From contig CABXSI010000003.1 in the NCBI GenBank assembly GCA_902514865.1, forward strand, positions 1-42,099: a stretch of DNA of 42,099 nt, written 5' to 3'. Shown here one piece after another: positions 20,817 through 30,686 of this stretch (its first letter is position 1; each line of letters opens with the position of its first letter). Below the pieces are notes generated by a model. It ran no database searches. It saw only the letters and a program-made list of their open reading frames with translations, and was not told where the DNA came from. The translations under genes and the position numbers were made by a program. Origin of the DNA: an uncultured SAR116 cluster alpha proteobacterium. Lineage in GTDB: Bacteria; Pseudomonadota; Alphaproteobacteria; Puniceispirillales; Marisalimonadaceae.

Positions 20817-21523
20817 TTTTTTATCTTTTCCCAGATGCTATTAGGTATTTCTTCAATAATTTTTTTATGTAATTCATAATCAGAAATATCTAAATATGTA
20901 TTCTTAAAAGCTCTTCTTTCCTTTTTCTGATATAAACTTTTAATGTTAGTCGGTGATATTTCTTGATTTAAATCTGGATACATAGATTCCGAATTAAATT
21001 CTAATTTTGTTTGCCTTCCTCCTATCAATTCTAAATATACATAAGCCAATAGTTTCGCATCTTTAAGTGCACCATGGACCTCACGATCAGATATATCTAT
21101 ATCAAATTTTCTACACAAGGAGTCTAAACTTACTGATTGACCAAGGAAATGTTTTTTAGCTAACAATAATGAGTCAATAATTAGATTTTCATTTAGCCTT
21201 TCTTTTTCACACTTCCTCAACTCTGAGTTAATAAATCCTACATCAAAGGGTGCGTTGTGTATTATGATATTACTATCTGAGACAAAATCAATGAATTGGT
21301 CTGCAATATCAATAAATTTAGGCTTGTCCTTTAAAAATTCTGTAGTTAGTCCATGAATCTGTAACGCTTTAGGATTTGACTCCTTTTCTGGATTTAAGTA
21401 AAAATGGAAATAAGAACCTGTTTGAACATGATTCTCTAACTCTACCATACCAATTTCAACTATTCTGTCCCCGTTGTTGACATCTAGTCCTGTTGTTTCA
21501 GTATCTAAGACAATTTCTCTCAC
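20813..21523 (-). CDS. dnaQ: DNA polymerase III epsilon subunit
   Basis: REIVLDTETTGLDVNNGDRIVEIGMVEL; ExoI-III motifs. Confidence 0.96.
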   Translation of the reverse strand: MREIVLDTETTGLDVNNGDRIVEIGMVELENHVQTGSYFHFYLNPEKESNPKALQIHGLTTEFLKDKPKFIDIADQFIDFVSDSNIIIHNAPFDVGFINSELRKCEKERLNENLIIDSLLLAKKHFLGQSVSLDSLCRKFDIDISDREVHGALKDAKLLAYVYLELIGGRQTKLEFNSESMYPDLNQEISPTNIKSLYQKKERRAFKNTYLDISDYELHKKIIEEIPNSIWEKIKN

Positions 21524-22134
21524 AACTTTAAAACTTTCTTTTTAAAGATTATAATTATTAAATAAACAGTGATTATAATTAGACTAATAGACTTTCCATA
21601 AGAGGTGGTAACTAAATATGGGCTTTTATCTTTTTTCCTTTGATCATCCCATTGAGCCTTTTTTATAAGATTTAGTTTTTTTTGATTCATACCTGGTCTT
21701 GCTAATACTCTCCTTTTCTGCGTTTCTGCGTTTGCATATACCAAAAATATATCGTCACAAATCTTATCAGTTCCTGTTTCATATAATAAGGGAACATCAA
21801 GTGCTACTATAGCTGATTTTCCTACGCTTTTTATAAATCCACTCCTTCTTTCTTCAATTTGCGGGTGTATGATACCTTCCAAAATACTCCTATATTTCTT
21901 ATTACTAAAGATTTTTTTACCTAATAAATTTTTATCTATTTTTTTGTCGCTTTTTTCAATTAAAACAACCTCAGGCCATAAGTCATATATTTGTTTTTTT
22001 ACTGCATCATTATATTCTAATATATCTTTAACTTCTGCATCTGAGTCAAAAACGGGTATCTTAAATTTCTTTAACATACTAGCAATAGTGGACTTACCCA
22101 TTCCTATAGAGCCTGTAATACCAATAATTATCAT
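21520..22134 (-). CDS. coaE: Dephospho-CoA kinase (unusual hydrophobic/basic C-terminus)
   Basis: IIGITGSIGMGKSTIASML P-loop, DSDAEVKDIL, ALDVPLLYETG. Confidence 0.93.
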   Translation of the reverse strand: MIIIGITGSIGMGKSTIASMLKKFKIPVFDSDAEVKDILEYNDAVKKQIYDLWPEVVLIEKSDKKIDKNLLGKKIFSNKKYRSILEGIIHPQIEERRSGFIKSVGKSAIVALDVPLLYETGTDKICDDIFLVYANAETQKRRVLARPGMNQKKLNLIKKAQWDDQRKKDKSPYLVTTSYGKSISLIIITVYLIIIIFKKKVLKL

Positions 22135-22407
22135 TAATGTTCAATTTTGCCTGTAAATAAACTGTTGATAAATACAACCTATTTGATAATAAATTAATCT
22201 ATATAAACAGAGTATGCATTTATTATTGTTTTAACAACATCTGAGTAAAATGGAAAAAAAAAATTATAAATTGTTAATAAATCGAATTTTTATTATATTT
22301 AAACTAGTTATATTTTAATAACTTGTGGATAATATTTTGACAATTTTCTTATCCACAATAATTAAACACTACTACAACTAAAATTACTTCTGAAAAGTTA
22401 AGTTACT
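22135..22407. other. oriC: Putative chromosome replication origin (oriC)
   Basis: Intergenic between divergent coaE and hemE; perfect DnaA boxes TGTGGATAA (22324-22332) and TTATCCACA (22349-22357) in inverted orientation; near-matches TGTTGATAA (22163-22171) and TGTTAATAA (22272-22280); extreme AT stretch about 22250-22320; location next to hemE as in Caulobacter/Rickettsia origins. Confidence 0.8.
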
Positions 22408-23433
22408 ATGAACGATGTACTGAGTAAATTCTTTAAACATGAGTATTCTAGCACACCAATTTGGTTTTTAAGACAAGCAGGTAGACACATTCCAGAGTAC
22501 TTTGAAATACGCAACAAAGCGGATAATTTTATAGACTTCTGTTTAAACACAAAATTGATTGTTGAAAGCACAAAGCTACCGTTAAAATATTACGATTTAG
22601 ACGCTGCAATTGTGTTTTCAGATATATTGATGATCCCATGGGCAATGAACAGAAAAGTAGATTTTATTAAGGGTGTTGGTCCAAAATTACAACCTATGGT
22701 TCCTGATGAAACAAAAATTTTGAAAAATATGAATATTTTTCAGAAGCTTGAACCTTTAGAAATGTCAATATCTATCTTAAGAAATGAATTACCTCAATCT
22801 ACAAGTTTAATAGGTTTTGCTGGTGCACCATGGACACTAGCTTGTTATATGATTGAAGGTCAGAGTAGTAAAGATTTTATAAATACCAGAAAAGCTCTAT
22901 GGAATTCAAATAAATGGTTTATGGAATTAATTGATACATTATCTATTTATGTTGCAGAAAAACTTGAAATGCAAGCCAACGCAGGTGCAGATGTTTTAAT
23001 GTTATTTGACTCTTGGTCTCATATGATACCTAATAATTTTTTTAAGGAGTGTGCTATTAATCCCACTGCTAAAATTATTAGTATTTTAAAATCGAAAAAC
23101 ATCACAAAACCAATAATTGGTTTTCCTTTTAAGGCAGGTTCGTCTCTAGTAGATTATTCGTATGAAAGCAATGTTGATTGTATAGCATTGGATTGGACTG
23201 TAAATTTAAATTGGATAAATAAAAATTTAAACCCTTCAGTAGCTATCCAGGGAAACCTCGATCCAGCTTCACTTATTCCATTTAATAGTTATCATTTAGA
23301 TAATATTGTTCTTTCTATTTTAAACGTTATGAAAGATAATAGATTTATCTTTAGTGTTGGTCATGGATTAACTCCGGATTGTAAAATTAAAAATGTCAGA
23401 AAAGTTATTGATATTGTTAGAAACTATAAATGA
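22408..23433 (+). CDS. hemE: Uroporphyrinogen decarboxylase
   Basis: TPIWFLRQAGRHIPEYFEIR, GFAGAPWTLACYMIEG, QGNLDPASL. Confidence 0.98.
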   Translation: MNDVLSKFFKHEYSSTPIWFLRQAGRHIPEYFEIRNKADNFIDFCLNTKLIVESTKLPLKYYDLDAAIVFSDILMIPWAMNRKVDFIKGVGPKLQPMVPDETKILKNMNIFQKLEPLEMSISILRNELPQSTSLIGFAGAPWTLACYMIEGQSSKDFINTRKALWNSNKWFMELIDTLSIYVAEKLEMQANAGADVLMLFDSWSHMIPNNFFKECAINPTAKIISILKSKNITKPIIGFPFKAGSSLVDYSYESNVDCIALDWTVNLNWINKNLNPSVAIQGNLDPASLIPFNSYHLDNIVLSILNVMKDNRFIFSVGHGLTPDCKIKNVRKVIDIVRNYK

Positions 23434-25171: not shown

Positions 25172-25187
25172 TGTTTCACGTGAAACA
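25172..25187. promoter_or_regulatory. parS: parS centromere site 1
   Basis: Perfect 16-bp palindrome TGTTTCACGTGAAACA, identical to canonical chromosomal parS. Confidence 0.95.
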
Positions 25188-28397: not shown

Positions 28398-29034
28398 CTC
28401 TTATAAAGATTTTTGTTTGTTTCAAAATGTTTCACGTGAAACATATGAAAAATTTATTATCTTTCATAAAACACTAATCAAATGGCAAAGCTCGATTAAT
28501 TTAATTAGTAAAAATAGTATAGAAAATATCTGGGCACGACATTTTTTAGACTCAGCACAATTATATAAAATCACAAAAGAAATTAAAGGAAACATTATTG
28601 ATTTTGGATCAGGGGCGGGTTTTCCTGGTTTGATATTAGCGATGATGGGTCACACAAAGATCCATTTAGTTGAATCAGATCAAAAAAAATGTACTTTCTT
28701 ACGTGAAGTTTGCATGCTTACCGATACATATGTTACTATTCATAACAGTAGAATAGAAAATCTAGAATACTTTGAAGTCGATCTTATTACTGCTAGAGCT
28801 TTAGCCCCACTAAATAAGTTGATAGATTATGCAGAAGCTTTTGTAAATAAATCTTCAACAAATCAAAAAATCCCTAAGATGTTGTTTTTAAAGGGCAAAT
28901 CATATAGAAAAGAAATTTCAAACCTAATTCAACAGGAAACTTTTTCTATTGAAGAGTTCGTATCAATTACAGATAAATTTGGTAAAATTTTATACATTAA
29001 TAAAAGAAATATGGTAAATATTAAGAATGAATAA
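28387..29034 (+). CDS. rsmG: 16S rRNA (guanine527-N7)-methyltransferase
   Basis: [48 protein letters not shown]. Confidence 0.96.
28428..28443. promoter_or_regulatory. parS: parS centromere site 2 (inside rsmG)
   Basis: Perfect TGTTTCACGTGAAACA, encoding the NVSRET segment of RsmG. Confidence 0.95.
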
Positions 29035-29821
29035 TAATCTTAGTCAAATAATTGCAGTTGCTAACCAAAAGGGTGGTGTAGGCAAAACAACCACTGTTGT
29101 CAATTTAGCTACTGCTATGGCTGCTTGTGATAAGAAAACATTAATCATTGATTCTGATCCACAAGGAAATGCTAGTACAGGATTTGGTGTTAAATATAAC
29201 GAAAGAGACAAAGACTTATACTCTATAATTTGTGGCAAAATAAATATAAACAATGCAATAAAGTCTACTATGATCCCAAAACTTGATATAATTCCTACAT
29301 CACCCAATTTGTCTGTTCTTGAACAAGAATTAGTTGATATTCATGAAAGAGAGTTTAAAATTAAAAGTGTATTAAATGATATAAATAATAGTTATGATTA
29401 TATCTTTATAGACTGTCCTCCATCACTAGGGTTGCTTACATTAAATGCGTTATGTGCAGCAAGAAGTCTTATAATTCCGTTGCAAACAGAATATTATGCC
29501 TTAGAAGGACTGTCTCAACTTATCAAAACATTAGAATCCGTTAAAGGTAATTTTAACAAAGATATCGCATTACAGGGTATATTATTGACTATGTATGATA
29601 AAAGAAACAAGATCTGTAAAATGGTATCAAATGATGTTAAAAATCATTTTAGTAACAAGGTTTTTAAGACTGTTATTCCAAGAAATGTTAGGGTTTCTGA
29701 AGCTCCAAGTTTTGGTCAACCAGTTCTGATGTATGATATATCTTGCCCTGGATCACAAGCATATGCGTCTCTCGCAGGTGAAATTATAAATCAAGAGAAC
29801 AATTACAATGAAAAAAAATAA
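29027..29821 (+). CDS. parA: Chromosome partitioning ATPase ParA
   Basis: IIAVANQKGGVGKTTTVVNLATAMA; FIDCPPSLGLLTLNAL. Confidence 0.98.
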   Translation: MNNNLSQIIAVANQKGGVGKTTTVVNLATAMAACDKKTLIIDSDPQGNASTGFGVKYNERDKDLYSIICGKININNAIKSTMIPKLDIIPTSPNLSVLEQELVDIHEREFKIKSVLNDINNSYDYIFIDCPPSLGLLTLNALCAARSLIIPLQTEYYALEGLSQLIKTLESVKGNFNKDIALQGILLTMYDKRNKICKMVSNDVKNHFSNKVFKTVIPRNVRVSEAPSFGQPVLMYDISCPGSQAYASLAGEIINQENNYNEKK

Positions 29822-30686
29822 AATTAATAAAACTAGTGGATTAGGAAGTGGTCTATCAAGTTTACTTGGAAGTCAGTTTGAAAAAAAATCAATTTTTTCC
29901 GAAAACACTACCGAAGAATATAGAATGGTTCCAATAGAATTTATTCAACCTGGACCATGGCAACCAAGAAAAAGATTCGACAAAAAGGAACTAGAATCTT
30001 TATCAAAATCCATTAAAAATCAAGGCGTTATTCAGCCTATAATCTTAAAAACGAGGGATGATAAAAGTAAGCATTACTACCTTATAGCTGGAGAAAGAAG
30101 ATGGAGAGCTTGTCAGTTAGCCAAAATTCATGAAATACCCTCAATTATAAGAGATGACATAGACAAGGAAAGAATTGCTGAGTTATCTTTAGTAGAAAAT
30201 ATTCAAAGATCAGAGTTAAATCCAATAGAGGAGGCTGAAGGTTACCAATCTTTGATAGAAAAATATAACTATACACAAGAAGAAATTTCTAAAGCCGTAG
30301 GTAAATCTCGTCCTTACATAGCAAATATTTTAAGGTTACAGGCGTTGTCAGATCTAGCTAAAGAATTTCTAATACAGGAAAAGTTATCTGTTGGTCAAAT
30401 AAGACCCCTTATTGGACATAAAGATACTGATAGCTTGCTTGAATTAATTAATAAAAACAATTTAACCTCACGACAAGTTGAAGCACTCGTAAAGAAACAA
30501 AACAAAAAATTACCGTTATCTAAAAATAATAATTTAGATATTTTAGAATTAGAAAAGGAAATTTTAGAAATTACCGGCATTAAAGCAAAGATTAATTTCA
30601 ATAACCAAAAAGAAAGAGGAAATATAAAATTGGAATGTAAGAGCTTATCTGAATTTAACTATTTATTAAAGAAGATTAAGTCTTAG
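29808..30686 (+). CDS. parB: Chromosome partitioning protein ParB
   Basis: GLGSGLSSLLGS; YYLIAGERRWRACQLAKI; LVENIQRSELNPIEEAEGYQSL. Confidence 0.98.
   Translation: MKKNKINKTSGLGSGLSSLLGSQFEKKSIFSENTTEEYRMVPIEFIQPGPWQPRKRFDKKELESLSKSIKNQGVIQPIILKTRDDKSKHYYLIAGERRWRACQLAKIHEIPSIIRDDIDKERIAELSLVENIQRSELNPIEEAEGYQSLIEKYNYTQEEISKAVGKSRPYIANILRLQALSDLAKEFLIQEKLSVGQIRPLIGHKDTDSLLELINKNNLTSRQVEALVKKQNKKLPLSKNNNLDILELEKEILEITGIKAKINFNNQKERGNIKLECKSLSEFNYLLKKIKS

Follow-up and report, generated by a model that had tools for sequence, protein, structure and literature searches.

The hemE-linked chromosomal origins of Alphaproteobacteria are known from Caulobacter (Cori), Rickettsia and Wolbachia, in which the other boundary gene is COG1806 (PF03618); because that boundary varies in Wolbachia, it is no strict requirement (PMC1914354). 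For origin opening, the Basal Unwinding System (BUS) rule calls for a DnaA box with at most two mismatches, for trios within 16 bp of it (the spacer length peaking at 10-13 bp), for at least three consecutive 3'-NAN-5' units and for strand separation by DnaA that depends on box and trios (PMC6669920, PMC8287927, PMC10721633). In Bacillus subtilis DnaA, Asn187 contacts the trio adenine, Arg202 and Glu228 contact the guanine, and an A-to-T change in the trios impairs initiation (PMC10721633). The single-stranded DUE motif of Escherichia coli is TT[A/G]T(T) (PMC10380432).

Literature on SAR116 combined with oriC or replication origin yielded nothing apparently relevant, judged from titles and the starts of abstracts. 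The window analysed here, a stretch of 42,099 nucleotides, is contig 3 of a 1.08-Mb assembly that is 60.6% complete; the closest named relatives of its HemE are SAR116-cluster and Alphaproteobacteria single-cell genomes. Sequence analysis indicates that the coaE-hemE spacer at 22135-22407 is almost certainly the chromosomal oriC of this SAR116-type alphaproteobacterium. The features on which the following account draws, with conservation counts taken from 26 same-genus genomes that include the window's own, are:

21520-22134, minus strand: coaE (TIGR00152)
22135-22407: coaE-hemE spacer (273 bp), predicted oriC core, abutting hemE, with divergent genes on either side
22152-22160, minus strand: DnaA-type site A1 (TTATTTACA, two mismatches), in tandem with A2; at most two mismatches in 18 of 26
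22163-22171, minus strand: DnaA-type site A2 (TTATCAACA, one mismatch); at most two mismatches in 20 of 26
22240-22248, minus strand: DnaA-type site B (TTACTCAGA, weak); at most two mismatches in 20 of 26, perfect in one
22272-22280, minus strand: DnaA-type site C (TTATTAACA, two mismatches); at most two mismatches in 26 of 26
22324-22332, minus strand: perfect DnaA box D; at most two mismatches in 26 of 26, perfect in 11
22349-22357, plus strand: perfect DnaA box E, pointing to the trio-like tract and hemE; at most two mismatches in 24 of 26, perfect in eight
22369-22380, minus strand: DnaA-trio-like tract, 11 bp from box E; run of at least four units in 24 of 26
22381-22407: proposed start of the melted region, extending up to hemE, suggested by its position beyond the tract and by T-rich/TATATA runs in order-mates
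22408-23433, plus strand: hemE (TIGR01464)
25172-25187: perfect parS (TGTTTCACGTGAAACA), between rho and mnmE
28428-28443: perfect parS, at the start of rsmG
29027-29821, plus strand: parA-like gene (profile match)
29808-30686, plus strand: parB (profile match)

The divergent coaE/hemE layout, with a spacer of 262-327 bp, occurs in all 26 same-genus genomes checked. The genes coaE-dnaQ lie on one side of the window's spacer, and hemE, a hemJ-like gene, rho, mnmE, mnmG, rsmG, the parA-like gene and parB lie on the other, a set typical of alphaproteobacterial origins. The parB product has a TIGR00180 match that exceeds the cut-off; the ParA-superfamily matches of the parA-like product are all under curated cut-offs.

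The cumulative GC skew of the window is lowest at 22-23 kb; its own genome beyond the window is too fragmented for skew, and the skew shift rests on relatives. A 728-kb scaffold from the same genus (G012:C1) carries parS at 492.6 kb, hemE at 494 kb and dnaA at 558 kb; its skew drops to a low at 450-500 kb, beyond which it climbs. In G048, a complete order-mate with a 2.59-Mb genome represented by 60 samples of 20 kb (46% of the genome), the cumulative minimum lies at about 1.467 Mb, close to parS (1.488 Mb), hemE (1.490 Mb) and an inverted perfect DnaA pair immediately upstream of hemE; the maximum is about 1.3 Mb from the minimum, or about half a genome. For G043, a second complete order-mate, the sampling reaches 1.06 Mb; hemE is at 0.867 Mb, and the skew changes sign there, being about -0.13 before the gene and +0.13/+0.22 after it. 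The exact minimum is offset from hemE by 23 kb in G048 and by 33 kb in G012, distances that fall inside the noise of the curves. Perfect parS sites give the same location: the window has two, where 0.23 matches would be expected even allowing three mismatches, G012:C1 and the G048 sample have one each, and the G043 sample has four (5-10 kb away), so that parS lies 2-10 kb from hemE in the window and in these three relatives. The earlier note had proposed an oriC adjoining hemE, and the proposal is supported by this skew turn, which falls at or near hemE in both order-mates and on the scaffold, by parS, by the conservation of the boxes in 26 relatives and by synteny with the Cori boundary gene in order-mates. 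Of the refuting outcomes that the note named, neither of those open to computation came about. An origin beside dnaA, the arrangement common in other phyla, is very improbable here: upstream of dnaA the DNA is extremely rich in AT, with conserved blocks, and is where many contigs end, but in G012, G048 and G043 the turn of the skew clearly precedes dnaA, and no cluster of DnaA boxes was noticed upstream of dnaA by eye. In relatives, dnaA is 60-75 kb from the hemE locus. An oriC by hemE is in the expected place for Alphaproteobacteria, and the origin itself is ordinary.

The perfect DnaA box, TTATCCACA, occurs at seven sites in the whole 1.08-Mb assembly, among which boxes D and E are the only close pair; they are 25 bp apart, and seven random sites would be expected to yield about 0.0016 pairs within 40 bp. 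The close pair of perfect boxes in the spacer is not a product of chance. One-mismatch boxes are near chance in this AT-rich window (22 observed versus 14.8 expected), and the weaker boxes therefore carry weight only because relatives conserve their positions. Alignment of the 26 same-genus coaE-hemE spacers, in which a box with at most two mismatches has a chance of 0.003 per aligned position, reveals DnaA-type sites at six conserved positions. Five of them (A1, A2, B, C and D) are on the minus strand; E alone is on the plus strand. Columns within the elements average 1.14 bits, compared with 0.34 for the remaining columns, and shifting the element mask circularly never gives a better result; the right-hand box, E, is weakened in some relatives. 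The box positions given by the earlier note, namely the perfect pair and the weaker boxes at 22163-22171 and 22272-22280, are confirmed, and the alignment adds the conserved sites at 22152-22160 and 22240-22248. The hedged suggestion of a minimal, two-box origin fails, since the spacer has six conserved DnaA-type sites.

Sites for CtrA and IHF in the spacers are not separable from background: the CtrA motif TTAA-N7-TTAA has no perfect occurrence in the window's spacer and 24 over the 26 spacers, versus 11.2 in simple shuffles, a count that the DnaA-like sites may inflate, and the IHF consensus has one match (22158-22170), overlapping box A2. GANTC, which CcrM methylates in Alphaproteobacteria, is scarce, with two occurrences in the 26 spacers versus 19.6 in simple shuffles; on G012:C1 it stands at 0.48 of expectation, and GATC is not depleted there.

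Between box E and hemE, the top strand reads CTA CTA CAA CTA, which on the minus strand is 3'-GAT GAT GTT GAT-5'. At least four C[A/T][A/T] units starting 10-14 bp after the right box are present in 24 of the 26 same-genus genomes, whereas 2000 rounds of shuffling the tails gave 0.02 on average and never more than 1 of 26; within the genus the run is strand-specific. A looser form is found in 11 of 18 upstream regions at the level of the order (0.8 in shuffles) and in 8 of 15 box-bearing upstream regions at the level of the class (1.6 in shuffles); the strict form is found in none of 47 non-alphaproteobacterial hemE upstream regions. The combined signature of box, spacer and tract has one match in the whole of the window's own assembly, and its reversed control has none. 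In many order-mates the tract leads straight into poly-T/TATATA sequence before hemE. A separate observation concerns TTATCAACAGCATTATGTCTTCCAACATCTTCAA, which recurs away from hemE in many genomes of the genus, among them G011, G014, G017 and G019 (for example G014:C8:75792-75825); it has the look of conserved coding sequence whose resemblance to the signature of box and tract is due to chance.

These patterns point to the hemE-side tract as the place where opening probably starts. The earlier note had instead suggested that the unwinding element could be the block at about 22250-22320, on the coaE side, and opening of the oriC there is unlikely, the block being the weaker choice: it is the AT-richest part of the spacer (up to 0.93, at 22285-22314), but outside box C it holds 0.38 bits per column versus 1.14 in the elements, it is enclosed by DnaA sites, and the hemE side is where both the conserved tract and the AT-rich runs seen in order-mates are located. 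Somewhat less unlikely is an oriC in which the tract is conserved for another cause, such as the hemE leader or promoter spacing, with no contact by DnaA; the middle base of the tract varies, against the adenine rule of B. subtilis (PMC10721633), which would suit that explanation, whereas the spacing to the right box (10-14 bp in 24 of 26 genomes), the strand specificity, the lack of a constant codon frame across relatives and the absence from the 47 non-alphaproteobacterial hemE upstream regions speak against it. The same absence weighs against taking boxes and tract together as a DnaA-controlled promoter region of hemE and coaE and no origin. DnaA is able to regulate promoters and the elements lie directly upstream of hemE, but the skew turn and parS coincide with the spacer, and six conserved sites with a tract at BUS-like spacing exceed what a promoter needs, which makes this alternative highly improbable. 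On the trio strand, 38 of 106 units (36%) have A as their middle base and 68 have T, and the rule of three consecutive NAN units is passed by 11 of the 26 genomes and failed by 15, the window among the failures. By its position the putative opening tract is BUS-like, yet by the published base rule it is no member of that system.

The DnaA proteins of the genus, with residues numbered by alignment to the B. subtilis chain 8btg, have Tyr at position 187 and Lys at position 202 in all 21 sequences read, and Glu at position 228 in each protein in which that stretch is shown. Across the class (n=20), position 187 is Tyr in 16, Phe in three and His in one. It is possible, as a tentative proposal, that the genus and perhaps Alphaproteobacteria more widely use a code 3'-G-[A/T]-[A/T]-5', in which the guanine is kept and the middle A is free to become T, matching the replaced Asn187 (mostly Tyr). 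The link between residue and base is offered as a hypothesis because trio type and DnaA residues do not covary within the genus, Tyr187 being present in 21 of 21 proteins with GAT or GTT trios; the order-mate G045 has Asn at the 187 position, yet mixed trios. The window's own assembly, 60.6% complete, contains no recognisable dnaA, its single match (27 bits) being Hda-like. Loss of dnaA from the lineage was considered and rejected, as nearly all relatives carry the gene and the match in question is Hda-like. In at least 11 same-genus assemblies (G001, G002, G006, G010, G011, G015, G017, G022, G025, G027 and G035; loci L271-L275, L281 and L283-L286, with G010 apart) the contig ends no more than about 300 bp upstream of dnaA, and the unbroken upstream regions are extremely AT-rich with conserved blocks AAAAATCAATA..TTTTTTTATTTTATTA and TTGCGATTGG, reflecting either assembly drop-out or a real element.

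The explanation that best covers the whole, and that is very likely correct, is a hemE-linked oriC whose boxes would load DnaA onto the hemE-side tract, with segregation by parS and ParB. DnaA-ATP would assemble on the DnaA-type boxes of the spacer; from the box at 22349-22357, DnaA would be loaded in the 3'-to-5' direction onto the minus strand of 22369-22380, with one protomer per three nucleotides of the tract; the AT-rich DNA before hemE would open and the helicase would load; and ParB bound to the nearby parS sites would then segregate the new origins. For an abundant ocean lineage that is largely uncultured, the placement of the origin helps in estimating growth rates from metagenome coverage. 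The 26 related origins also form a natural series in which the proposed trios differ in their middle base but retain the guanine and the three-base period, so that adenine capture as the cause of origin opening by DnaA becomes directly testable.

By position, as judged from the sequence, the spacer is orthologous to the hemE-linked origin of Caulobacter and Rickettsia, with which it shares hemE on one side, an AT-rich intergenic region, DnaA boxes and a shift in GC skew. The window's spacer has no perfect CtrA site, and it differs from Cori and from the origin of Rickettsia in that the boundary gene in this SAR116-type genus is coaE, not COG1806. In four complete order-mates (G048, G043, G042 and G037) the COG1806 gene (PF03618, Kinase-PPPase) sits right past the upstream region of hemE; it was not found in five genus members (G000, G009, G012, G014 and G031, two of them 99-100% complete); coaE therefore appears to have become the origin's neighbour. 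That gene is seemingly lost from the genus, and order-mates keep it beside the origin. Like the E. coli ssDUE, the tract contains TTGT on its minus strand (5'-TAGTTGTAGTAG-3'), which the GTT units spell, and relatives of the CAA type read 5'-TTGTTGTTGTTG-3' on that strand; unlike the E. coli DUE, it has a strict three-base period beside a consensus box, has no 13-mers and has another geometry. With the BUS of B. subtilis and others it shares a consensus box, a spacer (11 bp) within the published 10-13 bp peak, a three-nucleotide period, strand polarity, G as the first base and 3'-GAT-5' units. In contrast to that system, the window's units GAT GAT GTT GAT do not give three consecutive NAN trios, 3'-GTT-5' and 3'-GTA-5' are common in the genus, and the DnaA of the genus has Tyr in place of the adenine-contacting Asn187. 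The hemE-linked origin is of an already known kind, and its trio-like tract is a testable variant of the published opening rule.
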